A DNA stretch of 64,000 nucleotides from Isoetes taiwanensis (Eukaryota; Streptophyta; Lycopodiopsida; Isoetales; Isoetaceae): contig JAJEKV010000063.1 of NCBI GenBank assembly GCA_021234155.1, positions 2,016,947 to 2,080,946 on the forward strand, written 5' to 3'. Under the pieces are notes generated by a model. That model was not told where the DNA came from, made no database searches, and saw nothing but the letters and a program-made list of their open reading frames with translations. A program made the translations under genes and the position numbers. Shown in pieces: positions 38,600 through 62,431 of the stretch (positions within the stretch are counted from its first letter, which is position 1; every line of letters begins with the position of its first letter).

Positions 38600-40390
38600 G
38601 GTGCTAGATGTGTTTCATTGCATACCATTTCAAATTTGTTATTGCAGTATCATTAGAGTTTTTTTGAGATCAAATAAGGGCCCTTACTCGATGCCACGTC
38701 AAAAAGCTCGCGGCCAATGGGGAGCCGAGCTTGTACAGAACTTTTTCACCGAGCCTTGGTTTCGCGTTTCCAGGTGTCAACTGCACGTAGCTTCGGTAAT
38801 GTCCGTGCCTCTAGCTTCGGGTGTCAGATTACACACGTGGCAATTATAACCGTTAGCTCCCGCCCTCAATTCCATTTCGGTGTTTTCCACAACGAGTTTT
38901 TGGCGAAGATCGATTGCAGCGCCAAGGGAGCTTGGGTTCACTTTCGGGAAGCTGCCGACTGCGCTAAAGGGAGTTTCGACCCGCAGAAAAACTTCGATCA
39001 AGGTAAAATCGCGTAGCCTTTCCTAGTATTTCGATTCAGCTCCACATTCTGATTTGAATTACGTGACTAGATGGCTATAAGCTCTATCCGCGATCGGAAA
39101 TGAGTTTGAAAGCCCGTGGTGTCGTAGGGGGCTTTGTTACACTCCAACCTGCAAATGCGAGGTGAATGGCGAGTCAAAAGATGCGAGGAGAAATGATGTT
39201 TACGCACATTGGAAGGCTTTGGTGGTCGGTTCGATCGGGCAAAGAGATATTTGTACAAGTAAGGCATGTATACACTCCAGCGGATATGGCAAAAGAAAAA
39301 ATAAAGCAAGCGGCGAACTTTCCCACGGTTAGAAGCAAATTGTGAGTATGTAATTCTATGCAATCCATATTCAAATTAGTTGAGTTACTTATCCGGTTCC
39401 TTCCCATTCTCTCGGGTTTGTGTATATCGATGTGGAGAACAACGTCTCTTCACACTTTCGATAGCGGTGTTTTCCATTGCTTTCACCAAGATATGGGCTG
39501 CTTGTTGTTCGAAGGTAGCACACGATGCATTTTCGAGAAAGGGGTATATGGTTACGGAGGTATGAATACTCTCCACGAAGATCCAAGCTAAGCGAGCTTC
39601 CATTGCCCGACTGTCCAGATTTATCTGCGAGGCCTCGGATGCCACTTCTATCTTATTAGCGCGGAGTAAGTTGTCGCGAGGAAATGTTCCGCGGCATTGA
39701 AGGAGAAGGGAGGAGTCTGCGGGCATGTGAAGATAAATTTAGGAATTGATCTGTTCATTTCCATATTCAAAGCCGCCGACAATGTAAAGAAGACCTTGAA
39801 GATGTTTCGGTTTTAACGGTCGGCCGGATTGTTTTTTTAGATAGTGTATTTCTTGAAGGTTGGAGTGCTTTCGACTTCGCGATGGAGCTGAATGTCTTGA
39901 ATGCGGGATAAGTCGAGACGGTTCGGTTCAGATATTGCATTAGGAAGCAAACTACGTATGTCACTTTTAAGTATAGGAGATGGCGAAATGTAAGTGAAGA
40001 AGAAAGAAATGCGTCACGGATTCTGTCGAACAAGATGACAATGATGGCACTCATTCCGTTGTCATAGACTTGAACATTCATAAGGATAATCAATTTGTTC
40101 AAAAGTCGAGGCGGAGGCGAGTGGTCTCTATTCGATGTTAAAGCCAATGGAGTTGAGGCGGACTTAAACTTCTTCCATTTCATGATAGATGGCGAGGAAG
40201 GTGGAAAGCCTTGAGAGAAGAATGCTATAAATTGGGGTCATGCATGCCCCCAAAGTCATATCGTATATGAATCTATCTAATATAAATATAAGTGATTGTT
40301 TAGCTTGTAGATCTATTGTATATTAATTGCAAACATTTGCTTTCATTGGGATATAAGACTTAAAGTAGCCATGTTATGTACAACTCGATT
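38600..40390. other. unassigned region with weak plus-strand coding signal
   Basis: Plus-strand frames at 38,717-39,016 and 39,358-39,591 and a segment near 39,695-39,815 (ALKEKGGVCGHVKINLGIDL) look somewhat protein-like. The minus-strand frame at 39,767-40,183 is longer but of odd composition. I cannot identify a product. The region runs up to palindrome array A. Confidence 0.3.
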
Positions 40391-40394
40391 GTGG

Positions 40395-40775
40395 ATGTGT
40401 TTTCACCGTACTTACGGTCGCGAAATTGTGGCTCTCATAAAATATGGAAGGGCCATTTTCACCGTAGCCCACGGTCTTGAAAATAATGCATAGCATAAAA
40501 AAGAAAGGGGTATATTATGCGAAGTAGCCCGCGGTGGGAGTTATACATACAATAAGATATTGAAGTGTTGTTTTCGCTGCGTAGCCCGCGATGCGAAAAT
40601 GTACCCTGAATAAAAAATGGAATGGGTATTTTCGCACCATAGCCCGCGGTGCGAAATTGTGAATAGAATAACTTATCGAAGTCTTGTTTTCGCACCCGTA
40701 GCCGCGGTCGCGAATTTGTCATATAGCATAAATTAAGGAAGTGTTATTTTTCGCATCGTTGCCGCGTTCTTAGTC
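40395..40775. repeat. palindrome array A (TTTCGCACC..GGTGCGAAA)
   Basis: About six units of 60-70 bp. The clearest is TTTCGCACCATAGCCCGCGGTGCGAAA at about 40,629-40,655. Linkers are AT-rich and end in variants of GGAAGTGTTATT/GAAGTGTTGTT. Other units are imperfect, mostly by loss of C or insertion at CCG. Confidence 0.85.
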
Positions 40776-40989
40776 TCTATTGCAAATCAAAGCGCTACAA
40801 AAAGCTCACATTCTAAGTGTCATAAATCGGTTTATTTGCTCCGCGAGAATGGCAAATAGCGGGTCGGATAAGGCATGGGGAATTTGTTTTAGCACATGGT
40901 ATGACAAAATAGTGGAGAAAGAAGCGGGATTTTAAAATCCGGAAACATCGAAGAGTTCGAGGAGGAGCTAGAGGGCGGTGGATGCAACC

Positions 40990-42312
40990 AGCGTGTATAA
41001 TAATTTTTACTGGCGTAGACATTATGGCGAGTGTAGCGAGGTTTCTTGATGCATATGGCGGCATCCTTCATAGCTTCATGGCTGGAGCTGGTCACGGCGT
41101 GAAACCATGTCCTGTGGTTGGTTTGCCTTCACTAAGCATCAAGCTTTTCTTAAGATGTTTCGAAACGATCATGACCCGAATAAGAAGGTTCTTGAAGAAA
41201 CTACCGCGAAGCTGTATGCGGGCAAGAGGGAAGGAAAGTTTTTGGCCTAGATATCATGTTCGGCACATACATGATTTACACTAAGCCAAAGCAAAGATGC
41301 GGTTCTTCTTCAAGTGCAGTCATTTGAAAGCAGAGCGCCCGCCTCACCGATGAGGAGGCCGATAGATCACGAGGAAGAAGCTTCGTCTTGGAAAATGAGG
41401 AGATCGAGGTTGTGGAACAAGAGGTCTCAGAAAAAAGTTATCTACTTGGGGGGCTATCAGAAGCATATCCCATCCATGTAGGTGGGAAACCATACTTGTT
41501 CTTTTGGGACATATCTCTGAAGTGGCAAGGGTTGAGAGAAGGCGAGATATTGGGCGGATATATGCCCATGTTGTAGGCACAGGAGGACTTATAGACTTTG
41601 AGGCTGATGTCCCCGGACAAATGATGGAGGCATGTGACTTATGATGGATCCTCAATACCTCGGAGGATGCATTTGAAATTGTCATGCAACAATTTGAAGG
41701 GGGTATGAAGCGGTGAAAGATGTCAAATTTGAAGCTGCTAGCTCTTCAAAACCGCTTACGAATTCATAGAACGTGGTTTGTCGAAGTCCGCTTTCAAAAT
41801 AACAAACCATTTGTTGTCGAGCGGGACAAAAGAGAGGTATTTATCTGGTTTCATTTTCTATTTCTTCTTGAATCGATGTTTCTTTTATGCGGGGAGTTAT
41901 TTATTGATGACTTACATTGCAAGGCATCGAAGAGTCACCCTAGGTAGGGGCCTTGATGTGCACATTATATGGGCTACCTTCACAAGGGGAAATTATTGTG
42001 TTTCACAATAAATATAGTCCATCGAGTATGAGGGAGGTCCTCAAGCTTAAGGCTCTGTCATTATCGGGCAAACCCGTGCCCCTAGCCTCAAACTATGATC
42101 AAGTGGTAGCGATAGATAGGGCTATCGCAATGTATGTCTTCGGGGCTTCAAAATGTACTTTGTCCTTGCAAATAAAAGCGACTCTAGGCTTGGGTGGAAG
42201 CGGACAAAGGAAACAACTAGCGCTTGTCACATTGCCTGAAGGACCACGACATATTGTATCATTAGATGCAATTGGGGCTGGAGTAAAAAGAAGAGGACTT
42301 AGAAGATTTTGA
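40990..42312 (+). pseudogene. degenerate plus-strand coding block, unrecognised protein
   Basis: Protein-like segments in changing frames. FLDAYGGILHSFMAGAGHG occurs near 41,045-41,095 and KPYLFFWDISLKWQGLREGE near 41,490-41,550. GLIDFEADVPGQMMEACDL falls near 41,587-41,643 and YEAVKDVKFEAASSSKPLTN near 41,705-41,760. The longest intact part is 41,953-42,312 (119 codons: GEIIVFHNKYSPSSMREVL, VPLASNYDQVVAIDRAIAM, LGLGGSGQRKQLALVTLPEG), ending in a basic tail KRRGLRRF before a stop. No family is recognised. It lies between palindrome arrays A and B, and its stop is about 230 bp before array B. Confidence 0.45.
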
Positions 42313-42540
42313 TTCGGGTACTCTGAGGCCCGATGCCAAAAAAAAGGAAATGTACTTAAAAAAACTTATGTATGAATATAATGTCTTTTCTATAAATTGT
42401 CTTTTCTATAATGTATCAATTGTTTTCATATGACGAAATTGCTTTTGTATGAATGTTCATTTATGATATTCATTAATTGTTAGACTTCAATGTGAGCAAT
42501 AAATCCTTGTTAGATGTATATGTTAGGTATTCTTTAATGG

Positions 42541-43275
42541 TGGCTCTGTCGCGAAAGCGGGATGTCGGCGATTTTAGTGCAGGCGATTTACGCCTGCCGA
42601 GTAGCTCTGATCGCGAAAAGCAGTGATCGGCAATTTTTGGACTACCCTATGGGTAAAAGCATGTTAGGGTGTACCACTTTTGGAACCTGCAAAAGTACAT
42701 ACACTAGGTACTTCAGAACTGGGTACTTTCTCATTTTTCTTTTCATTAAAACTAATACAAAAATCCAAAATAAAAGTCAAGGACATGGTAATATTCAAAG
42801 TTAAGATAAAGATAATGCTATTGGAGACCAATATATATATAAAAAGTTCTAAAACATACCTTATATTGAGATATTATACAGGTACCCAGTACCCAGTCCT
42901 GGCTACCTTTTTAGGTACCTTTTTAGTCACTAAATAATACTTTTTAAGGGACACCCTAACATGCTTTTACCCCTATTTCGCACCGTGGCTACGGTGCGAA
43001 AACATGATGTCGGCAGTTTTTGGGTGCCGATTTCACCGCCGGCTCACGGTCGAAAGCAATTGTCTGCCGTTTTGGACTGCCCTATTTCGCACCGTGGCTA
43101 CGGTGCGAAAACAGGATGTCGGCAGTTTTTGGACTGCACGATTTCGCATCGTGGCTACTGGTCGAAAAACAGTATCTGCGATTTTGGACTGCCCTATTTC
43201 GCCTACCGTCTTACGGTCGCAAAGATGGCTATGTCGGCGATTTTATTTTGCCGATTTATACCGTGGCTACGAGAA
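42541..43275. repeat. palindrome array B, period about 55 bp, split by a MITE
   Basis: Units contain TTTCGCACCGT-GGCT-ACGGTGCGAAA (perfect at 42,976-43,001 and 43,085-43,110) and a linker ATGTCGGCAGTTTTTGGACT plus GCCCTA. The linker holds a second inverted repeat (GGCAGT/ACTGCC). Seven or so units can be seen, two of them left of the inserted MITE (42,541-42,650). Imperfect units differ again at CCG and CAG sites. Confidence 0.9.
42651..42972. mobile_element. MITE, 322 bp, 25-bp terminal inverted repeats, CTAT target duplication
   Basis: Left end GGGTAAAAGCATGTTAGGGTGTACC, right end the complement with one mismatch (GGGACACCCTAA...GCTTTTACCC). It is flanked by CTAT at 42,647-42,650 and 42,973-42,976. 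Removing it restores the array B linker GGACTRCCCTATTTCGCACC. The interior is AT-rich and non-coding, with further inverted copies of AGGTACCTTTTT/AAAAGTAC. Four-base target duplications occur in a few DNA transposon superfamilies (Sola among them). The superfamily cannot be fixed from this copy alone. Confidence 0.9.
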
Positions 43276-43299
43276 CATTTTTCGGTGTAGGGGTTTATG

Positions 43300-44335
43300 G
43301 GATCGGGGCGGGACAATATTGCTTAATTGAATTTCTTCTCCTTGCTAAAATCCGCTCATGTCCATGGAAGGCTAGCTCTGAAATCCCACAAAATGAAACT
43401 TGACCCATAGCTTGAGAATGTTGATGAGGTCATTACTAGCGTAGAGAGACTTCTATTCAATCCACGAGAGGGAGGCGGTTATTCCCATCACAAGCCCGGT
43501 GAGATGGGCGTAGAGGAGGTTGTCCCTTCTGAAGACCGGGCAAACACTTGGAAATGTCGTCCACACTATTAGTAATAGTGTGGGCCGAATATTCGAAAAC
43601 CAGCCGTGCTTCCTAGTCGGGTCACCTTCTTTGGTGGTAAGGTTGTTGGGGAAGGAGTTTTCGTGGCCTTGCTATGCGCCACAATATTCGGTTCGGATGG
43701 CGTATTGTGGTAGCGGTGGAATGCGACTACGGATCAACGGCCCGACTGCCGTTCCCCACCACAGGAGGCGGAGACATTGGAGGAAGCCCGTCGGGTCATC
43801 ACGTCGTGTGGCCCGAGGTTGATGTCATCCATGTCGGACCGGAGTCGCGGCCATTCAGTTCTTGTGTAATGAGCTGGATTGCGTGTTGAAACCACCGGGG
43901 GTCTACGCGGCAGTGCTTTGGCGGTTGACCCGGGGCTATGGTGCGGCTCATGAATCGAGCTATCTCCTCGTCTCAGGGCGTTGGAACCACTATTGCATTC
44001 CCAAAGCGTTTGGCGGTGGTGGGGGAGGAAGAAGCTGCGGACTATGGAAGTGCGGCATGACCCGCATCGGCTGGTCCGGCATGATCGGCGGGGATCGGGC
44101 GGGCGGCAAAGATCGGCATCGGCTGGTCCGGCAAGATCAGCCGGATCAGCCGCCCGGCAAGATCATCAGGTGGACGGCATGTTGATCCGGGAACCCTAGT
44201 TCGAGTGGAAAAGGTTCTAGGAAGCCCCCGGAAAGCTGAAATCGGTAGAAGAAATCCAAGCCGACAAAGCCTCTAGGCTTGTTCCTAGTCTCTTGAGACA
44301 AATTTGAGAGAGATGCGAGGGCAAGGAGGCCGATA
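43300..44335 (+). other. GC-rich plus-strand coding-like block upstream of the H3-like gene
   Basis: Frames at 43,520-43,822 and 43,862-44,185 are open and read as protein-like (GRIFENQPCFLVGSPSLVVR, ELDCVLKPPGVYAAVLWRL). They have no recognised domain and a frame change between them. Around 44,050-44,160 a GATCGGC/GCTGGTCCGGC motif is repeated, giving Arg/Gly/Gln/Pro-rich sequence. It may be the N-terminal part of the gene that ends in the H3-like domain, or a separate relic. Confidence 0.3.
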
Positions 44336-44338
44336 AGC

Positions 44339-44771
44339 TTGGTAATAAAGCGGAAGCCTAAGGAAGGGGAGCCTATTGTTAGATATGGTGGCCACGAGAA
44401 GATGAAGGGTGCTCCTCCGGCACTCGGGGCTTTGAGGGAGATCCGAATGTCTTGGCGGTGCACGCACCGGTCTACGATTCCCAAGCTTGCCTTCGCTAGA
44501 ATGGTCGAGTTTGAGATGCAGGAAATTATTGAGAGGAGGAAGGAAGCAAGAAGCAAGAGGAGGGGACAGAGCACGGACTTCGTCCGATGGTGGAGGAGGA
44601 GGTGAATAGAATCAGGCGAGGCCTTGGACATCTTGCAAAAAGCGTGAGAGGCTCATCTAATTAGCCTCTTTGAGGAAAGTGTCCTTTGTTGTGCACCCGA
44701 AGGGCGTGTTCTTGTCTTGAGGCCAACGATTATGCTTTAGCTAGATACTTAGTGGATGCCTCCCTTAGCAT
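44339..44771 (+). pseudogene. divergent histone H3-fold protein (H3/CENH3-like), frameshifted
   Basis: A basic tail (KRKPKEGEPIVRYGGHEKMK) leads into GALREIR, the signature of the H3 alpha-N helix. IPKLAFARMV follows, matching H3 IRKLPFQRLV (alpha-1). After an unusually long Arg/Glu-rich stretch and TDFVRWW come EALDILQKA.EAHLISLFEE and LCC..EGRVLVLRPT (H3: ALQEAAEAYLVGLFED, LCAIHAKRVTIMPKD, the alpha-2 helix and loop 2). After a one-base slip follows DYALARYLVD (H3: DIQLARRIRG). The order and spacing fit an H3 fold except for about 20 extra residues in the alpha-1/alpha-2 connection. The internal TGA (44,634) and two frame slips may be sequencing errors or real decay. It lacks the normal H3 tail and is far too divergent for a canonical H3. 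A centromeric variant or an element-borne copy are alternatives. Confidence 0.6.
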
Positions 44772-44892
44772 CCTTTTGTAACACTTTTGTTTCTTAATAT
44801 ATGAGTGTTTTAGTATTTATCGTCATGAGTGTTTTATATTTATGTAATTATTTGCAATTCTATTTATTTGCGGCCGGTGCATTTATATACTA

Positions 44893-45100
44893 GTGTTGAC
44901 CGTAGCCACGGTGCGAAAATGACTATTCCATATTACGTGGGAAGGTCTATTTAGCAGGTAATACCTATCTTAAAATGACTATTCCACATTCTTTGGGAAA
45001 GTCTATTTCGCACCAAATTAATGCAGTGCGAAAATAGTGGTTCCAAAGTTTTTTTAGAGAGCAATTTCATGCAAGAAGTGACTACGGATCGAAAGCGAAC
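44893..45100. repeat. palindrome array C
   Basis: The core GACCGTAGCCACGGTGCGAAAA occurs at about 44,899-44,920. Linkers are ATGACTATTCCACATTCTTT plus GGGAAAGTCTATTTCGCACC, in two copies. A half unit CGCACCAAATTAATGCAGTGCG follows. It lies between the end of the H3-like block (plus) and the end of the minus-strand block at 45,238-45,960, that is, between converging 3' ends. Confidence 0.75.
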
Positions 45101-45237
45101 TATTCCACACATTGCGAAGAGAATCTTTGAACGAATTTAGAATCTACGTAAGGAAAATGGCCAAGAGCTTTCCAAATTGAAAATGTGCGGTAAATAGGCC
45201 GGATCACATGTATCACTTATGGTTACATACTTATAAC

Positions 45238-45960
45238 TCATATAAGAGGCATAGCATGTACATAGAACTCATATAAGAGGCATAGCATACATGAATGAAG
45301 AAGCTTATTAGCGATCGGGATCATCATGAAAAGGTAGTTGGTGATGCGATTAATCTCATAGGCATGCGCTCTGGAACCCTCAAAGGTGGATAATAACACG
45401 ATAAAACCCTCAGGAAGAGCGATTTGCCCCTCTGCTACTCCTTCCAACCCGGGGATCAAGGGGATACCCCTCACGAGAACATCTATGAAGATCATTATAT
45501 GTCATAGTGCAAGTAATGGAGTCCATATCTTGGGACGAGGAGGCCGAGAGACATAGCAAATGGGGCATATACGCATTGAGTGGAACCCTACTTATATCGA
45601 ACAAAATTATTGACATGCCTTTGTAGCGGCATTATTGGTTATACATCGAGCATAATGTACAAAATACACATGTATATAATATGCATTATATAAGCGTATA
45701 TACATTGAGTATTGAGTTAGGGGGACTCTTCCGAGTCATTGTCACGAGCACCCGGTGATCTTTTCTATCATGTACATTTGATGCTCTCTATTCCATATTA
45801 GATGGATGATAACATCGAAGGGATCGGGATAATAGCGAGGATTGAAGCGGCGGTGGTCATCGATCTTCCATGGGTATTTCTCGCTCGCGACCTTTGCTTG
45901 AAATTTTAAGTGATTCATCTTGCGGTAATGGAATCACGTTCGGGACGAGAATGAGACCAC
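45238..45960 (-). pseudogene. minus-strand coding block, unrecognised protein
   Basis: Upstream part (about 45,935-45,730): YRKMNHLKFQAKVASEKYPW then RRFNPRYYPDPFDVIIHLIW and MYMIEKITG. Downstream part (45,495-45,238): IFIDVLVRGIPLIPGLEGVA then LPEGFIVLLSTFEGSRAHAY and RITNYLFMMIPIA. Both read as globular protein in the same orientation, with an acidic ARDNDSEESP between, but no family is recognised. It ends about 140 bp from array C. Confidence 0.4.
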
Positions 45961-46299
45961 ATGGCTAGGCGGAGGCCAATATTGCTGCACTTTCGGCAAT
46001 TTGATGTATATTTATACCCAGCAAAATTATTGATGGTATATACCCGGAAAATTATTATTGGTATATACATAGAAATTATTGATGGTATATACATACCAAA
46101 ATTATTATCATATACATACTTGTATGGTTTTCGTATGCTTCGTGAGCTACAATATCTTATATTATAATGTTATTGTGTAAGTGTTGGACCCGACCCTAAT
46201 TTGGCGGTTGATTTGATGAAATCAATGGAAGAGATGATGCCACGTAAGATTCTTTAAAATAACATGGTTTTTGCTAGGGTTAGCGAGGCGGCGATTACC

Positions 46300-46530
46300 G
46301 GGGAAGTCAGGCATGCACCTTGATGGGCGTTTGAGGTTTTGATCTTTGCGGACTTCCTTTGATGTTCCCTTTAGTGCGAAAGTAGTCTTGGCGGTAGAGA
46401 TGTGCGAGTTTGAATACATTCCGGTCCATGCCTCACCCTCACGGCTTGGCCATCATATCGAACCGAACTTCGGATGGTTGGTATCGTGGCTACGATATCG
46501 CGGCGGCGGCGGAATTCCGCCTTCAAGGTA
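46300..46530 (+). other. possible exon end with consensus donor TTCAAG|GTAAGT
   Basis: A GC-rich plus-strand stretch ends at about 46,527 in AAG|GTAAGT, a perfect splice donor. The preceding frames (TATCGTGGCTACGATATCGC and GGCGGCGGCGGAATTCCG) give short Ala/Arg-rich peptides. It could be a 5' exon of an unidentified gene or mobile element. Confidence 0.25.
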
Positions 46531-46657
46531 AGTGGATTTTGCCATTTTTTTGCTCTTCTTCTTGCTCTATGCGGTTTGATAGTCGGTTGCTCGGAGGCCA
46601 GTCTCTTGCCGATTTGCTTTCCTAAGGGGCTATGGAGGCGGCGAGAGGCTATGGCAC

Positions 46658-47200
46658 TTGATCCGTTTAGGGAGCGAAAAGGAAGAAATTTGTATAGAAC
46701 TCCGTCTGGAGCATCATCTCCTGAGATCACCATGGGCAAACCCCCGCATCACGGAAACCTCTGTTATCATATCTGCGAGGAAGGAGAGGGCTTACAATAT
46801 TAACATACCACAGTTTGCAATGATTCGAGCAATAATACCACGGTTATCGTGCCACGGTAATATTAACATACCCGGTTATCGTATTAAGAGCTCTTTCAAA
46901 GGCGTACACGAAGGCCGAGGGAAGCCCGTCAAAACACTCAATGGATCGACCTTCTTTAGTTTTGGTATGCCACTTATCGTATCAGCGTCTATGATGTGGC
47001 AAAATAATTCTTCTTTTATTCCCTTGATGTCGTGGAGCAAAAGCGAAGCATACTCTTTGGATGTCTGCGGTCGAGGCGAGAACTTTTTGATTTTGTGTTG
47101 TCGATTCATTCGGCAATATTTCACAAAGCTTGATTTCGAACATGATTTGCCTCTTGCTATGATCTACCCAGATTCAAAGCCTTTGCCCAAGGATGGCTAA
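46658..47200 (+). CDS. 180-codon open frame, doubtful
   Basis: Open on plus from an ATG at 46,658 to a TAA at 47,198-47,200. It contains a direct repeat (AATATTAACATACCACAGTT / AATATTAACATACCCGGTTATCGT). The minus strand of its right half (47,124-46,876) is also open and looks at least as protein-like (EYASLLLHDIKGIKEELFCH, SGIPKLKKVDPLSVLTGFPR). I cannot decide which strand, if either, codes. Confidence 0.25.
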   Translation: MIRLGSEKEEICIELRLEHHLLRSPWANPRITETSVIISARKERAYNINIPQFAMIRAIIPRLSCHGNINIPGYRIKSSFKGVHEGRGKPVKTLNGSTFFSFGMPLIVSASMMWQNNSSFIPLMSWSKSEAYSLDVCGRGENFLILCCRFIRQYFTKLDFEHDLPLAMIYPDSKPLPKDG

Positions 47201-49810
47201 AAATGCGGTTCATAGCTTTGTCGGAGTTGAGTTCTTGAGGAGGATTTTTCGTTGGCGGGTAATTGCTACATGTAATTATTTTTACTATGAATTGTGCTTT
47301 AAAGCTGTAGTTGTTTTGATCTTAGCTAGCTTATAATATAGAGATCCACTCCACGAACATGTGCTTTTAGAGCTGGGTCTCTATCTACGTCGACTTATAG
47401 TTAGATATTGCCCTTAGAATTGAGTGCGATTGAAATAGGACATGGCGAGTTAGTTTGCGGATCATTATGTGTTTTCATTACGTCTAAAAGCGAGAATATA
47501 AAGATTTTGTCTTTAAGCTTTTAGGAATTCGGCTTGTGTCCAACGACCATGTACAAATGCACAAAAGGGATCGCCATTTCGTCAATTCTCTATTCCAAAT
47601 TGTTTTAAGCTTGGTGGGACAAAACTTGGTTAGAAACATTTGCATTGGTTGCTATTTTGATTGAATTTCTTTGGTATATGATTGTGAATTTTGCGGAGTC
47701 TTCAAGCGGCCATATGTTGACCTTCCATCGAGAATGTGCATGGCGTGAGACATGTTTTGTGATGAATACCATCACATCAAGCTAAAGATATGAGGTTATG
47801 TCTCGGCGTCCTCCGGAGATATATCGAAAATGTTTATTGTAATTCAACAAAGAATCTGTTGTTTTCAACAAAGGATATGTTTATTTGCTTTGGATTTGAT
47901 AGGGATTGAAATGTTTTTTTTGCTGCTAGAATAGTTGGGGCAGACATAGTCTTATTTCTTGCATGGTAGTCGAGGAGACCCAAGGTGTACAAGAATAAAA
48001 TCCTATTTGACTACATGTGTGCTACACGCAAAAGACCATTTCGTCCATGTCAAGAATCATATGAGGGATGCCTTTCGGTGATATTCAAGCAGGTAAGATA
48101 GCATGCAAAGTTTGAGATGATGCACGTAGACTAAATGTTCATTTTCTAACATTAAAGCACATCAGGCTTTGTCAGCATTTTAACATATTTAGCTTCATCG
48201 GATAAGGAGTTTCGGCCACACTTACAAATATTTACCTTCTACAATAGCAACATGACACAAATGTTTAGATGTCCCTAGTACATGTCAAATTCTGCAATGG
48301 ATTGCCCAATGTGACAGGGCATGTATAAAGAAACATAATACAAAGATTTACATTAACCCAAATGTGCCTTGCAGTGTCAATTTGTTGTATCATGTATAAA
48401 GATGCGCTATATTTGTCTAGATCCTTAAGCAGATTAGGTCTTTCTAAAGAACCTGTAAGCATATATCAGCATTGCCCTGTGCCAGAAGTGTAATTTATAT
48501 TTTTTCAAATAATCCTCTTATGGAGTATGCTGATCTATAAGAAAGACTCTAAGTTCATGTAACAAAGCTAGCATGACATGGAATATTGTGCAAAGACAAT
48601 GTCAAATGTAATTAAAATGTAATTACTGCATATATAAAATATACAGTAGTTGTTTCAAAAAATCATCTTTGCATATACAATAGTCATTTCAAAGAACTTG
48701 ATAAACCCAATAAACAAAGCTCAAAGGGCCCATCGGCTATAAAAAAAAATATGCAAACAGATAATTAATTAAGCTAGGCAAAAAAATGGCCGTTGAAATA
48801 GCTCAAAAAAGAAGTTGGGATACAAATTAAAGACAACATAAAATACGCTCCCACAAATAATTATATGGCCAACAAGTTTCCAACATTTATGGTTACCAAA
48901 TTACAATTATATGGCAGGCTTTGGGTAAATTTGTAAAATGCTCCAGTGATGTTTGGAGACAAAGGCTGTCATAGATTAATGGGATGCCCGGACTTTGTTT
49001 ACTTTGTGCACTTTTTGAGGAATGATTTTATATTTTGAAAAGACTTTGGTGTTTGTTCCTTTATATACTTACATAACTCTAATGCCATGTTCGTTTCCAA
49101 CAACTACAACTTTATACTTTAATAACTGTATTGCCATGTCCTTTTCTACAACTATGCGCCATGTCATTTTTCAACAACTACAATTTTATACTTAAATGAT
49201 TGTATTGTCATGTCCTTTTTTAACAACAACTACAAGGGTTATACGAAACGAAAGGGGTATGGTAAAATGGCGTGTGACGTGGATAAAAGGCCCTTTTTAA
49301 AGAACTTTCTCTTAAAATTCTCCCCTACAACGAAGATGGAAGACAATAAGGAACACACAACTTAGGTATCGAAAGATCTTGGCATTGTTATCAACCCTAG
49401 GATAAGACATAATATATCAATTAACGTCATGCTTTTTTGTTTCTGAGGGCATCGAGGAAAAATGTATCAATTAGCATCATGCTTTTGCTTCTGAGGCACC
49501 TACAAAAATGATCGCGGGGCGATGTGCTTTCGAACACATTGCTCATTTGGAGCAATCAACCAGATGATTTATATGGTTCAATGACGTTATTCGATGTGAA
49601 CTTGAATGAATGAGACATCACCCTCCTACAATTGAAGGTATTTCAAGCTATACTTTGCCAACATTTTAATGAACGAATCCAACAACATATTCTTGGCACC
49701 CGTTCATTTTTTATCCTTTGTACAGAAATTACGAGAAAAGAGTACAAATATTAAATTGATACTGTGTAATTTTCTCATTGCAGCTAGAACTTTCATAGGC
49801 TTCCAAATTA
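47201..49810. other. AT-rich region without recognisable genes
   Basis: Only short frames. Weak direct repetition at 49,090-49,230 (GCCATGTCCTTTT.CAACAACTACAA, three copies about 60 bp apart). The stretch leads up to the Helitron 3' end at 49,839, so part of it may be Helitron interior. Confidence 0.4.
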
Positions 49811-49839
49811 TGCCCAGCAACGCTGGGCACCATTACTAG
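49811..49839 (+). mobile_element. Helitron 3' end
   Basis: Hairpin TGCCCAGC-AAC-GCTGGGCA (49,811-49,829), then CCATTA, CTAG (49,836-49,839) and T. The same hairpin family ends the Helitron at 18,360 (GCCCAGC-ATC-GCTGGGC). No 5' end of this element could be assigned upstream. Confidence 0.75.
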
Positions 49840-49904
49840 TGTAAATATAATGTACGTATATAGCATATATACCTGATTTCTCTTTAAATAGGCATCTATG
49901 CCTT

Positions 49905-50540
49905 GTCTTTGTCTGCTTCTTGTTTGCATGCTCCTTGCCTCCCTGTCCGCTTCTTGTTGCTCTTTGCCTGCCTGTCTGCTCCACTAGTTTCTTGCAAATG
50001 GTAACTTTACAAGAACATCCTCGCTGGGCTGATCCGGAATACCTGCAAGCGTGCGGTAGAGTTAATACATGCACTTTTGATGATTTTTAACAACTTTTTG
50101 GGAGCATCGATGGCGTCGCGGTCCAACCACGAGCTTGCAAGGCCCCTGATCAACCGTTATCGTCGCTATACTCGTCATCTCCCTCCCTTTGGAGGAGATC
50201 AATTCGAGTCAAGCAAGGTTCCTCTAAGTGCTTTGGGACTTCTTGAACCCCCTCGGATTTAGAAGATAGGCTAGAGCGGTTGAAGGACATGCTTTTCCAT
50301 GGTTTCATGGCCTACTCTACGGATCGATTATGTGCCTCGGTCATTCCTACTAATGAGAAGAATAGGATTTATATCCTCATTGAACTTTCGACTTCCATTA
50401 CAAATCTTTTGTGGATATTGGTAAGCTCTATTAGTTCCCTTGACTTCAACATCCTGTGGTTCTTGTCTAGATTCCCCACACGGGATACAATTCCTTGGGA
50501 TACCGTGACCTATGGCTACATAGCACCTGACACATAATAC
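49905..50540 (+). pseudogene. unrecognised gene unit, copy 1, behind a CT-rich tract
   Basis: A pyrimidine-rich tract (GTCTGCTTCTTG, CTCCTTGCCTCC, 49,905-49,985) leads into TTGCAAATGGTAACTTTACA with a reading VTLQEHPRWADPEYLQACG. Frames at 50,077-50,262 (NHELARPLINRYRRYTRHLP) and 50,280-50,537 (DMLFHGFMAYSTDRLCASVI, LSTSITNLLWILVSSISSLD) follow with slips. The same opening motif recurs at 51,361 (NPPWATPEGLQAC), so this is one of two diverged copies. No domain is recognised. Palindrome array D follows 220 bp after the last stop. Confidence 0.4.
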
Positions 50541-50757
50541 ATTACATATCACGGTGAAGATACTCCAACTGGATTTGGTATAAAGATTTTCATAGAAATT
50601 AAGTATATAAGCAAGTGATTTCCGTGTAATTAAATGCTTGACCTCATATTATCATGTATTATGTTGGCAATCTTACACTTTTAGTGTAATTGAATGGTTT
50701 CTTCTACCATTTTCCTTGTATTTTCTCATGTGAATGTTTTATTTGTGGTCATATTAG

Positions 50758-50850
50758 GGACCGTGGCCCGCGATCTTGAAATCGCCTCACTTAAAAAATT
50801 ATTGAAGGGCCTATTTCGCTTGCAGTAGCTCACGATATTAGTACTTCAGC
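50758..50850. repeat. palindrome array D
   Basis: GGACCGTGGCCCGCGATCTTG and, after a linker AAAATTATTGAAGGGCCTAT, TTCGCTTGCAGTAGCTCACGAT. The linker TTATTGAAGGGCCTATTT is the one used in array E, 1.3 kb away. Confidence 0.6.
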
Positions 50851-51039
50851 GGTATTCACAGCTCTTTGTGGTATTATACTTCAACGATATTAGTATTATA
50901 CTTCAACATTATTGGGTCGTAGCTATAAATTCTTTCACCTTGCTTTCACTTCCCACCTTTGTTCCATGTTTTCACATTGCTTTCACTTCTCGTGTTCTCA
51001 CCTTGCTTTCGCCGCACCTTGTGTTAAAGGTGTTCTTTG

Positions 51040-51360
51040 CTAATTGATCTTGATCCTTGCTTCTTGCTCCTTCATCTTCGTGCTACTTCATGCTACTTGG
51101 TCTTGTTCCTTGCTCTTGATCTTGCTACTTGATCTTGTTCCTTGCTTCCTTGTTCCATGATCTTCCTTGTTCCTTGCTACTTCATCTACCTGGTTCTTGC
51201 TATTTGGTCTTCCTTAATCCTTGATCTTCTTGCTCCTTGATCTTCCTTGTTCCTTGCTTCTTCCTACTTGATCTTGATCCTTGTTCCTTGCTACTTGGTC
51301 CTCTTCCTTGCTTCTTGCTCCTTGTTCCTTGCTCTGCTCCTTGTTCCTTGCTTGCTTGTG
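51040..51360 (+). repeat. CT-rich low-complexity tract (TTGCTCCTTGTTCCTTGCTTC)
   Basis: About 320 bp of interspersed CCTTG, CTTGCT and TTGATCTTG words. The minus strand gives a Lys/Glu/Gln-rich translation (ARNKEQSKEQGARSKEED), which is repeat-derived. It directly precedes the second copy of the gene unit, just as a shorter tract precedes the first. Confidence 0.8.
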
Positions 51361-52045
51361 CAAATGATTGGACCCAATCCTCCCTGGGCTACTCCAGAAG
51401 GACTGCAAGCATGCCCCATGCATTCTGTGCGGCCTGGAATGGATGAGCTATGGGACCATTTCTTAGAGTGGAGGTTGCGCCACAGTCCCACCAAGGAGCT
51501 TACAATGGAGTTGATCAACTTCATTACAGGCGATTTGATTGTGGTCATGAGCCTTGAGGGAAATTAATCCATCGAGATGTTATAGGAGACTTGGAATGGG
51601 GAATGCTTGAACCCCCTCCTTATCTGGCCGAGATGCTCACGACAATTGAGGCCTCTTCTTCGTCTTTGGATATTTAGCACACTCACGGATGCATACATAT
51701 CGAGTTCATTCATGAAATTTGTAAAGGGACACATGTATGGCCTTATTAGGGTGTACTACAAGCGTGTACAGCGGTTTTGTGGAGTTGGGTCCGCTCTTCT
51801 TCCGTGAGTATCATCATCACGGAATTACTTTTTCTAATGACTAGGTACCCCATATGGTGGGAAGAATCGAAATTTTGGGATGGCGTGAGCTCTTGATTCC
51901 TAACCGGATGCATGGGTTACACCTCATGGGAAGGGGAAGGGAAGGGGAAGGGGAAGGGGTTAGGAACCTAGGGGAGGCGTTACTAGGGACATCTTTGCCG
52001 TGGTCTCTAGTAACCTTTGCTATCTATCATAAATATTTCATATGA
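51361..52045 (+). pseudogene. unrecognised gene unit, copy 2
   Basis: Starts GTGCAAATGATTGGACCCAA. The reading MIGPNPPWATPEGLQACPMH continues to MDELWDHFLEWRLRHSPTKE and TMELINFITGDLIVVMSLEG. Later pieces are LIRVYYKRVQRFCGVGS and RIEILGWRELLIPNRMHGLH. The P-x-WA-x-PE-x-LQAC opening matches copy 1 at about 50,008. A GGGAAGGGGAAGGGGAAGGGG microsatellite lies at 51,929-51,959. It is enclosed between palindrome arrays D and E, which share a linker. No family is recognised. Confidence 0.4.
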
Positions 52046-52132
52046 TACTGGTGATAATATGTTCTATAAATATTCTCTAATATGTTAATATGTTCTCTAA
52101 TATGTTAATATTCTCTAATTCTTGGCCCATAT

Positions 52133-52440
52133 TTACCCGTAGCCCGCGATTAAATTATTTCAGTACAAATTATTGAAGGGCCTATTTGCACCGTATGCGC
52201 CCGCGAAAATCGGCAGTTACAAATTATTGAAGGGCCTATTTGCATGCGGTAGCCCGCGGTGCGAAATCACATTCGATTACAAAATTATTCAGGGCCTATT
52301 GGCCGTAGCCGCGGTGCGAAAATCACTCGATTACAAATTATTGAAGGGCCTATTTCTTGGTGGCTGCGGTTAAATCGATGGATCGGTTTGAATTCGGGCC
52401 CATATTTTCGCACCGTGGCCCACGATGCCAATACATCATC
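52133..52440. repeat. palindrome array E, period about 57 bp
   Basis: Five units with linker TCRCTCGATTACAAATTATT then GAAGGGCCTATTT and cores such as CGGTAGCCCGCGGTGCGAAAT (about 52,250) and TTTTCGCACCGTGGCCCACG (about 52,408). Most cores are damaged at CCG/CGG sites. It lies about 90 bp from both the plus-strand block ending near 52,045 and the minus-strand block ending near 52,532. Confidence 0.8.
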
Positions 52441-52531
52441 AATTTACTTACAACCACGACATTTGCTGCGCGAGCACTATCGGTGATAAATAAACCAACT
52501 CTTTACACGGTAGAGGCGTTATCGGGAGCTC

Positions 52532-54760
52532 TCAATCTGGACATAACCTTTGCCTTGCCACCATCTCATTGATCTCCACTCCCTTGATGCGGCTCAGCAT
52601 TTGCGGACTTATACCAAGCTGCCCTCTTTTTTCATTTGGGTTTTGTCTAAACAACTTAGCAAGTGTTGATTCACTCACGGTTCGTGATTTCTTCACCCAC
52701 TTGCACCACGATCCTACGTAAAACCATTGACACATCTGCTGCAAGGAATTCCCCAACTGAACCTCGTGTTGAGTGAAGCGGAAGAATGCATTCTTTGCTT
52801 GCTTATGGGACTTCTCCATTCCTGTGTATTCCAAATTCCGGGCTTCCATACTCACGACAAACCACCGCCATGTGCGAGCAGAATATGGATATAGTGAGTC
52901 AAATTGGCCTCACCCCCCATGCCGTCGGGGAAAGACTTAGTGAAGTTTGTATTTGCCTCACGGAATTTGGCAACATCATTTTCTGCACTACCTTTTTTGC
53001 ATTTCCTTTACCGGTCTGGAGAAATCACCGCCATGCCTTGATTTTCTTGGTGATCGCCACGATCATTTCGATCATCCTCGGCTGCAATAAGATCCTTGTA
53101 AGCTTCCCAAACACCGGATAAGTTCTCTTTCGCGGGAGGCAAAACCTCTTAGCCTTTGGACCACCCATCTTGGGTTTTGGGGAACCTTGCGGATACCTTT
53201 GGATCTTGAAGTATTTTGTAGTGCCCACCATGAAGTCCCACATTAGATAGCACCTTTTCAACTTCATGCATGGCAGCTTCCCTAGAGCTTTGGGGTGATT
53301 TATTCCAAGCAAGCGGGATACTCATGTAAACCATCTTGTCTATGATTCTCAAGAAAGCATGAAGGGTGCATATGTGTACTCTTCTTAGCGAATTGGAGAA
53401 TTGGCATCAAGGTTGTGTCCTTCTCCTCTCTATTTGGTGGCTCATCACGGACCGCGGTCTAATGTACTCTTGTCCAATCGGTGAATCTCTTCTTGCATAG
53501 AGGCGGTAGGGACAAGCATGAGTAGTCTTACCCGGCACCATGCTTCATTACGTACATGCATTTTATTGTCTTCAAATCTGCGACAAGATGCCATTCAACC
53601 TCGTACTCACCATATCCGGGAGGCGCAAGTTTTTCTCCGATTAGTGAGAGGCAATCATTGTGGGAATGGGTGTTTGATCAAAAACCCATTTTCAGATTAT
53701 CTTTGTGATTTTCCTCACGGTACTGAAATAAACCAACCCACCAAATGTGATCTTGATTTGGGCCGGAAAACTTATCATCTAGATTTGACTCTTCATTCCA
53801 CTGTATTCAAAGCTACGTTCATTAGACTCGAAACCCTCTCGTTACTTCTAGCCTTTCACCAATTCCATTTCATCCGGCTTCAAAACAATTCTTAGTTTGC
53901 GGTAGCACTCTTCTACCTTCATATCATAAAAAATCGAACCAAAAATTTTGAAGCATTCTAGTTAAGTCTATCCAGCAATTGTTATTTTCATTAAAAGGCG
54001 AAAGTATCACCAAACCGACTTCTTCTTACCTTTGGTATAGGATGCCAATGTATCAAGTTGATTGCTATTCGGTCGGTGATACATATCACCAAGCTCTTGC
54101 ACTTATGCGTTTCTCGATGACCTACAAGTCATCCGCTAGTCATCCTTGGTAGTAGAATAGTTTTGGTAATGCCTTGTTGTTTAAAGCCATCCTCAAACAT
54201 CACGAACAAAGCAATATAAGCTTGCCTACTTATTCGGACATTGTCACGGTTCTTTGCGATTAGAGGTTTATTTGTTTCCCCAACTCACACAGCTTGAGGT
54301 TGATGTACTACTGACTTTCCTAAGTTGAATGCTACGGGAAGCTTTAACATTCTCAATACATCATCTTTAGTAACTAATTTCTTTAATAAACCGGCAATAT
54401 TAGCGGGTTTTCTCTTATTACCTATTACGCAAGATTTGGATCAACAAGATTTTTAATAGCCATGACCCTTTTTTTGAGCCTCCACCCCGAGGGGGCTAAT
54501 ATATTTATGGGCTTCAGGTTTTGCCCTCTCCACGATCCCGGTGGAGTTCTTTTTAAGCGTTTGACCAGCTTGTGAAGGAATCATTTTCTTGCGCAACCCT
54601 CTTCATTCCTTGCTGCGGTGCATTCATCTCGATCACTAATTTCTGATTTTCTACCTCAATTCATTGAGCTTGCGGCATTGTTGAGGCAAAGTAGTTACTT
54701 TGTTGGGACTGATTAACATCGATAAAACTTTGCAATTGAATCCATACAAGTGGTTATACA
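52532..54760 (-). pseudogene. large degenerate minus-strand gene, unrecognised, next to array E
   Basis: Minus-strand protein-like segments in a consistent order but changing frame. A coiled, Gln-rich start (about 54,660-54,590: VENQKLVIEMNAPQQGMKRV). Then about 54,410-54,170: LLKKLVTKDDVLRMLKLPVA, KNRDNVRISRQAYIALFVMF, FKQQGITKTILLPRM. Then about 54,080-54,020, INLIHWHPIPK, and 53,352-53,149, MVYMSIPLAWNKSPQSSREA with EVEKVLSNVGLHGGHYKILQ. Then about 53,140-52,870: WEAYKDLIAAEDDRNDRGDH, TNFTKSFPDGMGGEANLTHY, YIHILLAHGGG. Finally 52,855-52,532: KSHKQAKNAFFRFTQHEVQL. The total would be over 600 residues. I do not recognise the family. Conserved-looking Trp, Asp and His are present, but no DDE, RT or helicase signature. 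It ends about 90 bp before array E, suggesting that gene and array belong to one mobile element. Confidence 0.5.
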
Positions 54761-56090
54761 TGCGCATAAATGTGGATCGGTATTACCATTAACCAAATTA
54801 TTACGGTAACCTAGTAACCCTTGCTGTCCCTTACAAAAGCAAATTCAATAAGACCCGGATCGCAGTGGAAGTTTGGATGGGCTCAGTGAAAGGATCACAT
54901 GGATCTGATTGGCCTTTAGCGAGGTCTATATTCATGGCTCAAGCTTCGCGATGCATCTTCATCTATTGGTTGCTTCAAGTGAACTTATTCTGTAAGGCAG
55001 GCATTCTTTTGGCACTTGCACTCTAAATTGACCCTCGGAATTAGTTTGATCACGAAAGCAGTATTAGAAGGAAGAACACTCAAAGGAATGCAATGGCGAC
55101 TTCGGAAACCAAATACCTTTGCCATTGGCGTTGCAAAGACCGAGAAACCCGGGCGGAGATTAAATTAGGAAGATTCTTGCCAACAAAGCGGAGGCGAAAT
55201 TGAAAAATTTGCTCTATTCTGGCAAAAGAATCACCTCTGTCAAAATTCAAAAGCGCACAGGTGCGATGGCAAGATCGTTATTTCGATGAAGCGATGGCAA
55301 AAGGTCGATGGGCGAGGGCAAGCTCGATCGATGGTCTTTGGCTTCGATGGCATAAGCTCGAAGGTGGGAAAAGCGAAAATCCTAGATATAATCATCAAAT
55401 ATTCAGTCGTTAGGAAATAATGATTGTGGGGTTAGGTTCGGGGGTTAGGTTTGGAGGTTAGGTAGTTAGGTTAGGGGAGAGTGAAATTTAGGTATGGAGG
55501 GGGGAAGCTAGGTTCGGCATCCTACGTGGCGGCCCCCCTAATATATTCTTAGGAGGCCCTTATTTGACCTCAAAAAAACTCTAATGTGGTAGAGCTACAC
55601 GTGTTCGTGCTATTGGGTAGTGAATTCCAATGCCACAGACCTTAATACATGTCCAACAACTTAAAATTGCGGGGGACAAAACGGTTGGAATAACAAAAAA
55701 GTTCGGCCACGTCTATGCCGTGAACTTTGGTATTTATGAGAAGATGGTCTATCAAATCAGTAAGAGAACTATCCCCACCACTACACATATTGCATTAAAT
55801 TTGACCTATCTAATATTCAACAACAAACATGCGTATTCTCCAAACAACCTATAGTAACATGTTTATCAACGTATGAATAGTTATATACACTCCATATCCA
55901 AGCTGATAGGCTCAATAGGCTCAATATTGCATATCTGACCTAGGGAATTGACCAAATAATTGACCACTGATTTGACTAGGCTTCATAAGAGATATCACAT
56001 GCGAGCAGAATTTGGCAATGAAAAAACCAAGCAAGATATATGAAATCAACGTTTTCATTCCATATATATCTTCATAGATGCGATGCACAA
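54761..56090. other. unassigned region
   Basis: A GATGGCAAGATCG / CGATGGCAAAAGCTCGA-type repetition at 55,265-55,370 and a GGTTAGGTT-rich stretch at 55,430-55,480. A plus-strand frame at 55,630-55,854 (HVQQLKIAGDKTVGITKKFG) is weakly protein-like. No gene is called. Confidence 0.3.
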
Positions 56091-61112: not shown

Positions 61113-62431
61113 TCACTTCGTGGCTGTATGGATATGTCCCGGTGCATAGTAGAAGGAAACTCCACTCCCAAATATTTGTATGTGGATGCAACTTCCACAT
61201 TTTGGCCTCGATAGCGGAAGGAGGGACCCTCGGTTGGCGTGAAGATGATATGAAAACCACCTTAGTCTTGGCGGGTTGGCGCGCATATCGGTCGCTTGGC
61301 GAGAATGTGTCGGGGGCATCGAGATAATGCGTTGCATATGCGCTGGTGTGTAAGCTAGGAGGTCCACATCATCGGCATATATTAAGCTGTCGATGATCGA
61401 TAGAAAGGTGAGCTCCATCGCCCCATTATCAACAAGCTAGCTCTCCAATTGATCAATGTAAAGCCCAAACAATGTTGGGGGGAGGGGCATCCACTGGCGA
61501 ACAGATACTACTATCAAATGGTTGGCTTATGCTTACCGGCCCGAGCATCTTTCATTATAGCACATGCCTTTGCATTGCGCAAATCTGGGAGCGCCGGTAT
61601 TGCGGTCTTGCCCATAGTTTTTCGAGAGTACGGTGTCAAAGCGCCCGCCAAAATCCACAAAGCAACAATATAGATCACGGCCGGTTCTGCTTTCTTCAAT
61701 CGAGTTAAGCAATGTGAAGATGTGGTCAATGGTTGAGTCTTGGGAATTGCGAATCTGCACGGGTGAGGGCCGCACCTCTCTTTGCCTCTGCCCGACACAT
61801 CAGCTGCTGCTTTCGAGAATCGGCAAGCAATTTTGCAAACTTGAAGCCCCGACCATGATTGTTGGTGGTGGCTAAGGCGGTGTGGGTCACGCCTTATATA
61901 TGGGAACAACTCTGCTATTAGTCCCGCTGCGGGGAAACCTTCTGTAATGCCTTGTTGAACAAAGGCGTCGGCCTTAGTATTATGGGCGGCCACGCCCACT
62001 TAAGCAATTACGCGCATACCATCCAAGTCACGGGGCTTTCCCATTGGCAAGGCAATTTGCAAGCCTTGTTCCGCGTCAGAATCTGTGATTTCCGCCTTTG
62101 GGCCTTCTTGCAAGGGTAATCTTTGCATGTGCACCGAGGGGTCGTTATTTATTGCAAAGTATTGTCTCCACTTTCGGGAGTGATATTCCATATAGGAACA
62201 TCGCGGCTTTCTAAGAACCCTTTGCTAGAAAGGTTTTGGGATGGCGTTCGGGAGGTAAAACATTTCCCTTTGATCTTGTTGCAATGTACACGGCTTTCTT
62301 AGCTTTAAGGAAGATCGCGTGTCTTCATTTACATGTGGGCGTAAAAGCGAGTGCGTGACTTGGCGAAACCCGGCGTTTGTGTTCCTTGCACTCGCATCAA
62401 ACCATTGATTACGTGGGAAGGTTGTGTTCAC
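61113..62431 (-). pseudogene. LINE linker and reverse transcriptase domain
   Basis: The linker segment NQWFDASARNTNAGFRQVTH (62,415-62,355) is the usual start of the region between EN and RT. At about 61,749-61,650 come STIDHIFTLLNSIEES and LYCCFVDFGGRFDTV, the RT box with FVDFxKAFDTV. GCPSP..LFGLYID-like text follows (about 61,480-61,440), then IYADDVDLLAYTPAHMQRI (61,383-61,327) with the catalytic YADD. SRQPRVPPS and KMWKLHPHTNIWEWSFLL follow. Stops and frameshifts interrupt each part. The FVDFRKAFD type of box points away from plant L1 and towards other non-LTR clades. Confidence 0.9.

Follow-up and report, generated by a model that had tools for sequence, protein, structure and literature searches.

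Tandem palindrome arrays with a common 26-nt core between the genes of a dispersed multi-gene DNA transposon of Isoetes taiwanensis

The window analysed here, a stretch of 64,000 nt of the Isoetes taiwanensis genome (assembly GCA_021234155.1, contig JAJEKV010000063.1, positions 2,016,947 to 2,080,946 of the forward strand), carries five arrays of tandem palindromes (A to E), which occupy the intergenic gaps of a dispersed, approximately 13-kb multi-gene DNA transposon and do not form a local satellite. The element, its ends, its dispersal, the array positions, the sameness of the palindrome core against the turnover of its linkers, a histone-H3-like gene and the mostly absent target-site duplication (TSD) are established below. 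The transposon is probably of the cut-and-paste kind. As to function, we tentatively favour, with slightly less than even confidence, the reading that the arrays are clustered dyad sites for an element-encoded protein that would act on chromatin along the whole element.

The transposon and its palindrome arrays

A 32-nt inverted repeat, 97% complementary, encloses all five arrays, and other copies of the element end at identical bases. Genome searches covered 1,658,258,908 bases in 1110 contigs. The inner 27-mer of the terminal inverted repeat (TIR), with up to two mismatches allowed, was found 188 + 202 = 390 times (control, 0 + 0), and the TIR matches listed include repeated cases of facing pairs at a distance of about 13 kb. 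Two full copies, c937 (L069 and L070) and c930 (L071 and L072), were read, and the ends were compared in ten TIR-paired copies. These ten, chosen for a spacing of about 13 kb, measure 12.3–13.0 kb, compared with 16.9 kb for the window copy, which is longer because of a nested insertion missing from the aligned copies. One open reading frame (ORF) fragment of this 3.7-kb insertion was scanned and gave no Pfam match above the cut-off.

The arrays share a 26-nt dyad, TTTCGCACCGT-NNNN-ACGGTGCGAAA, and the linkers between the dyads vary with array position. A search of the window allowing up to three mismatches found two exact copies of the full 26-mer, at 42976 and 43085 (none in 100 shuffles). 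Arms with at most two mismatches number 23 in 38651–55586, against a mean of 3.8 and a maximum of 7 in 30 mononucleotide shuffles, and arms with at most three mismatches group at 40399–40759 (A), 42976–43223 (B), 44908–45119 (C) and 52184–52490 (E); six lesser groups of two or three weak arms elsewhere are at chance level. In the window, array D is heavily degraded; it was confirmed solely through aligned copies, c930 having two good units there. Thus the sequence-only reading, which had described five arrays with one 26-nt core and differing linkers, is borne out for A, B, C and E in the window itself and for D through its relatives.

The arrays lie in the same gaps across aligned copies, so the positions are fixed within a repeat family, as had been proposed for checking: c930 has arrays in all five gaps, and in c937 and C16 four gaps contain good units and the D gap a single arm. 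Genome-wide, exact matches to the 11-nt arm number 1721 + 1743 = 3464, compared with 324 + 333 = 657 for the reversed control, so that the arrays do not stem from one recent local duplication. A literature search on the core letters returned, judging by the titles seen, no described plant repeat with this core, in agreement with the sequence-only reading, and the 26-mer pattern had no match in the viral or genome collections searched.

The regular array period is 57 (26 of core and 31 of linker). The loop is 4 nt long in 98 of 105 units, which were picked by their likeness to the core; in these 98 the loop-adjacent arm base is conserved 97 times on each side, and the A at the centre of the left arm every time. 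Between different copies, core identity is 0.84 at the same array position and 0.82 at different positions, compared with linker identities of 0.68 and 0.52, respectively (0.46 when shuffled). The comparison involved 104 of the 105 units and 58 linkers, with array positions assigned by hand and array B represented by two linkers; detection of units by likeness to the core biases it towards high core identity. With that bias, the contrast between core and linkers upholds the suggested constraint on the core. Arrays D and E, which had been said to use one linker, are the exception to position-specific linkers, with an identity of 0.70 between them. The second part of the gene 5 region, next to array D, is moreover a paralogue of gene 6 (40% identity over 182 aa, E = 1.6e-38), and this paralogy together with the linker that D and E have in common fits duplication of a gene-plus-array module. 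The idea that the arrays were seeded repeatedly and independently from the hairpin is not supported: they travel within one transposon family, and the D/E linker fits module duplication.

Unit number differs among copies, and some copies are without one of the arrays, as might be expected if the arrays were a functionless minisatellite expansion hitch-hiking in the transposon. We regard this explanation as very improbable, for the dyad is constant across positions with unrelated linkers and in two subfamilies, and chance repeats in five gaps would not have a 26-nt dyad in common. The second subfamily (L013, L014) possesses an extra gene that is likewise flanked by palindromes on both sides (L013:4292-4945 and L014:3800-4534).

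The arrays also fold much better than shuffled sequences, with z-scores of -7.1 as DNA (window 42971–43111, array B) and -12.2 as RNA (array A of c930), and their location between genes places them at the 3' ends of the upstream genes. Both properties would suit a role at the RNA level, either through a transcribed hairpin at a gene 3' end, concerned with termination or RNA stability, or through the production of small RNA. This role appears unlikely, though it deserves some weight: changes in both arms of a unit are not in excess (8 observed against 8.9 expected, 3 of them complementary), in a core that varies too little for a strong test, and no Rfam family matched the window at gathering thresholds. 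Palindromes within linkers are weak and confined to array C (p of about 0.03, uncorrected, in two of the nine linkers tested).

Within array B of the window lies an apparent separate insertion of about 340 bp (42630–42970) with inverted ends of its own, TTAGGGTGT and ACACCCTAA; letters like those of this insertion are found near gene 2 in L074.

Transposase, target sites and array-free relatives

Gene 1, broken in the window, is a single open frame of 797 codons in c930 (P0001), on the minus strand at the right side of the element. Its protein has 72 genome matches including itself, 62 of which contain at least one stop by manual count. By eye, the motif order D..D..CxxC..H(3-4)H..E can be read in the sequence, through the blocks KLDEMEL/M, ADLKTIKCM, CPYC, HICTLH and GMEKSHK, which are present in P0001 and in L074; L073 and L075 have the same blocks as far as their open frames extend, with CIYC and HVCTLH in L075. 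Kojima describes this order for the CMCT clade, and CMCT elements have, like this one, 5'-CA..TG-3' ends and CxxC and HxxxxH between the second D and the E (PMC12730594; here and below, published systems are described from the available parts of the cited papers). None of the three transposase frames scanned (P0001, L073, L074) had a Pfam match above the cut-off, and P0001 had no match in the PDB. A canonical CACTA transposase (Transposase_21, PF02992) was rejected on that ground; PF02992 has 167 matches in the genome, and none among the matches listed coincides with those of P0001, as compared by eye. A viral source is likewise unsupported: in viral_contigs, P0001 drew two candidate stretches, and no relative was confirmed.

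The 5'-CA..TG-3' termini were found as CATTAG..CTAATG in 9 of the 10 full-length copies, the left end of the remaining one being TATTA. None of the ten is flanked by a direct repeat of at least 3 bp, the flanks sharing a single base or, once, TA, as by chance. Genome searches were made with the joined flanks of eight copies; among the 40 matches listed, five copies gave junction-spanning empty sites, and seven such sites were read. At four of the five copies the TSD is 0 bp: the joined flanks equal the empty site over 30 bases on each side, bar one mismatch in one of the two L049 sites. The fifth copy, with two empty sites, has one extra C, a TSD of 1 bp. Hence the 2–5 bp TSDs reported for CMCT members (PMC12730594) are absent from the five copies with empty sites, and the analysis adds a CMCT-like element that inserts mostly without TSD. 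Insertion without TSD is also described for Spy; however, Spy uses AAATTT targets and a PHIS-type transposase (PMC4482050), whereas AAATTT is not common to the five targets read here and the transposase has another motif order.

Three distant relatives (L073, L074 and L075) were sampled over 9 kb each. In all three, gene 1 is 50–52% and gene 2 45–50% identical to those of the array-bearing copies. Neither the palindrome core nor an array occurs in any of them within the 9 kb, and genes 3–6 gave no tblastn match there (best E 0.67), while the same queries do find L013, L071 or L072. L073, the sole delimited relative, ends in CATTAGGG..CCCTAATG, and its termini, CATTAGGGTTTTTTTGAG, are almost those of the array-bearing element; in L074 and L075, genes beyond the 9 kb may exist. 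Relatives that have genes 1 and 2 and no core, with nearly identical termini in L073, imply that the arrays are not required for the ends to work. In these sampled genomic pieces, the arrays and genes 3–6 appear to go together. The L073 insertion lies in what is, by eye, a PPR-like gene copy with an empty paralogue at C1101:1068223-1068400; the empty counterpart has three more bases, corresponding to a 3-bp loss.

These relatives bear on the possibility that the arrays are transposase-binding repeats required for transposition, as in CACTA/EnSpm. Such a role could be entertained given the CMCT-type motif order of the transposase-like protein and the TIR 7-mer AAGGGCC, whose recurrence in the linkers of arrays A, D and E makes a link with the transposase possible. 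Forward copies of AAGGGCC inside the arrays number 3, 3 and 5 in c930, c937 and C16, respectively, compared with about 0.1 expected from base composition; since the linkers are repeats, these copies are not independent. We nevertheless consider transposase binding quite improbable: the arrays lie at least 1.7 kb from the ends, and all three relatives with the same transposase family are without the core, including L073 with its nearly identical TIR. The narrower candidate of a subterminal CACTA repeat was ruled out by the same position and absence.

Histone-H3-like gene and possible action on chromatin

Arrays B and C flank gene 4, whose C-terminal part is a histone-H3-like domain. The domain of copy L016 (P0002) matches the Pfam Histone family (PF00125) with 67.1 bits against a cut-off of 26.4 (E = 2.2e-18), and the best PDB matches of the gene 4 piece of c930 are H3 chains (E = 2e-5); taken alone, the c930 piece (14.1 bits) and P0003 (11.2 bits) stay under the Pfam Histone cut-off. 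Translations show a basic stretch between core helices 1 and 2. A diverged relative of gene 4 is present in the second subfamily (L013, 43% over 106 aa), and the extra gene of that subfamily is weakly H3-like (P0004, E = 0.002; P0005, E = 0.005; both under the cut-off). A plant-transposon domain suspected by eye at the start of gene 4 found no Pfam support and is not claimed.

Among the 150 scored genome matches listed, 22 are near end-to-end without a stop by manual count, L092 and L093 of these having shifted stretches. For the ratio of nonsynonymous to synonymous substitution (dN/dS), 18 loci were retrieved, chosen because they had no stops or were diverged; 13 of them were used together with L016, and L091–L095 were left out as shifted, truncated or diverged. 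The median dN/dS was 0.45 for the whole sequence, 0.38 for the fold and 0.50 for the tail (14 copies; 84–90 of 91 pairs, with dS above 0.03), which suggests constraint on the source copies and is not proof of present function.

At 13-mers on which c930 and c937 agree, the window copy keeps the central 11 bases at 5 of 55 CAG, 11 of 60 CTG and 8 of 31 CCG sites, compared with 102 of 148 and 146 of 208 at the non-CHG centres CAT and CTT. The commonest single outcome in the window copy is CAG to CGG (45 of 82), which is not deamination; deletion of the middle base, tried as the chief error, was not supported, most altered sites having fallen into the class 'other'. Alteration is milder in c937 (CAG kept at 3 of 8 sites, CTG at 11 of 21) and slight in c930 (3 of 3 and 10 of 13; small numbers throughout), and CAG plus CTG together reach 29 per kb in c930, compared with 18.8 in c937. 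The published Isoetes taiwanensis assembly was built from nanopore v9.4.1 reads called with Guppy 3.1 and polished with Illumina reads (1658.30 Mb, 204 scaffolds and 909 contigs; PMC8566536). The simplest reading is that these are probably nanopore miscalls at CHG-methylated cytosines, in a repeat beyond the reach of short-read polishing. In that case the decay of arrays and genes in the window is partly technical and the copies differ in methylation; many imperfect arms of the window, on the same reasoning, look like assembly error and not evolution. The CHG context may thus corrupt nanopore assemblies of such repeats, and the alterations would be usable as a rough readout of methylation per copy.

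With its constant arms, the 26-bp dyad would fit a DNA-binding protein that acts as a dimer, and arrays in the gaps round the accessory genes, at the same places across copies, suggest action on the whole element and not on one promoter or on the ends. The earlier option of a protein-binding site of a mobile element stands in so far as the arrays belong to a transposon; the binding itself is a prediction. A dimeric protein would bind the dyads, its source most likely being one of the array-associated accessory genes 3–6; the H3-like protein, or a partner of that protein, is a candidate. Once bound, it would act on chromatin along the element and keep the element or its genes open, which would amount either to sequence-specific anti-silencing or to coordinated control of promoters, as with VANC on the tandem motifs of VANDAL.

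VANDALs are Mutator-like elements. In Arabidopsis, the non-coding parts of VANDAL21 contain short motifs in tandem; VANC21 binds to these and removes methylation (PMC5735166). The VANC/VANDAL system (PMC5735166, PMC10398659) resembles the present one in having a short tandem motif in the non-coding parts of a multi-gene DNA transposon. The two differ in that the VANC21 motif is the 9-mer YAGTATTAY and its VANC protein is known (PMC5735166), whereas here the motif is a 26-nt dyad and the transposase is CMCT-like. The scanned pieces of genes 1, 2, 3, 5 and 6 gave no Pfam match above the cut-off to a VANC relative or to a Mutator-like transposase, Pfam being the sole comparison made, with no direct comparison to VANC.

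Fungal DNA transposons also carry H3-like sequence at high copy number, and many amplified H3 copies of Pyrenophora tritici-repentis are potentially active (PMC6710886). The fungal cases concern an amplified housekeeping H3, with all transposon copies inactivated by repeat-induced point mutation (RIP) in P. fijiensis (PMC6710886); the H3-like gene here, unlike those, is strongly diverged and fused to other sequence, has its helices 1 and 2 separated by the basic stretch, and bears signs of constraint. DNA transposons encoding TET/JBP (PMC12730594) likewise bring their own chromatin or methylation gene, proposed to evade silencing, but that gene specifies an oxygenase and not a histone-like protein.

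A more specific and rather unlikely version of action on chromatin is that a private H3 variant, guided by an array-reading protein, is laid along the element and so evades host CHG silencing. If true, this would be the first known mobile element to pair address sites with a self-encoded histone, within the literature searched; full-text searches returned no comparable element, judging by titles and abstracts, subscription papers being mostly outside their reach.

Several observations weigh against action on chromatin through the arrays. No recognisable DNA-binding domain was found by Pfam in genes 2, 3, 5 and 6. The window copy itself looks CHG-methylated, with no sign of anti-silencing at work, and altered conserved CAG/CTG sites are not clearly fewer near the arrays (11 of 29 within 300 bp, 56 of 126 farther away). 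The sameness of the core across positions could partly stem from gene conversion between arrays or from the way units were detected. The dN/dS estimate lacks a neutral control and draws mostly on loci chosen for the absence of stops, and the array-free comparison consists of three relatives. Escape of transposons from silencing has been worked out in few cases; this many-copy family from a seed-free plant, which offers candidate address sites, relatives without arrays for comparison and a histone-like gene under apparent constraint, makes self-encoded chromatin directly testable.

Features of the element and its surroundings

The coordinates of all features are collected in Table 1. No Pfam match above the cut-off was obtained for the scanned pieces of genes 2, 3, 5 and 6, and a BAH domain suspected by eye in gene 2 is, for want of Pfam support, not claimed.

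Table 1 Features of the transposon copy in the window (window positions)
Feature	Positions	Strand	Basis
Whole transposon copy	38651..55586	.	32-nt inverted ends, found also at other copies
Left terminal inverted repeat, CATTAGAGTTTTTTTGAGATCAAATAAGGGCC	38651..38682	+	inverted pairing with right end; genome matches
Gene 2, protein also in two-gene distant relatives	39070..40277	+	tblastn with L010:3353-4282 and L012:350-1144
Array A, AT-rich linkers, gap of genes 2/3	40399..40769	.	arm clusters and aligned copies
Gene 3	40774..42480	+	tblastn with L010:1892-2854 and L011 ORFs
Array B, gap of genes 3/4, with small insertion at ~42630-42970	42545..43275	.	exact 26-mers and arm clusters
Gene 4, N-terminal part followed by a histone-H3-like C-terminal domain, reading frames interrupted in window copy	43314..44751	+	sequence comparison
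Histone-H3-like domain of gene 4, window copy	44285..44716	+	C1071:2061231-2061662, 58% identity to P0002, 3 TGA
Array C, gap of genes 4/5	44900..45119	.	arm clusters and aligned copies
Gene 5 region, first part, strand provisional	45235..46096	+	tblastn with ORFs of L011, L013, L014 and L016
Nested insertion	46097..49840	.	alignment of copies breaks off at ~46096-46158 and continues from ~49838-49880
Gene 5 region, second part, gene 6 paralogue	49841..50542	+	tblastn; protein comparison
Array D, degraded in window copy	50762..50835	.	two good units in copy c930 (L071 and L072)
Gene 6, paralogue of second part of gene 5	51345..51904	+	tblastn; protein comparison
Array E, linker in common with D	52134..52434	.	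arm clusters and aligned copies
Gene 1, transposase-like, broken in window	52700..55076 (approximate)	-	797-aa open frame P0001 in c930
Right terminal inverted repeat	55555..55586	-	inverted pairing with left end; genome matches

In copy L016, a 651-aa open frame with RVT_1 and zf-RVT (L016:4940-6892, minus strand) forms an insertion just left of array D. Elsewhere in the window, tandem repeats and ORFs recur at a spacing of about 8.15 kb between approximately 22870 and 36000, suggesting segmental duplication, and an ORF at 61113–61436 on the minus strand, with no Pfam match, contains a YADD motif that by eye resembles a LINE-like reverse transcriptase.

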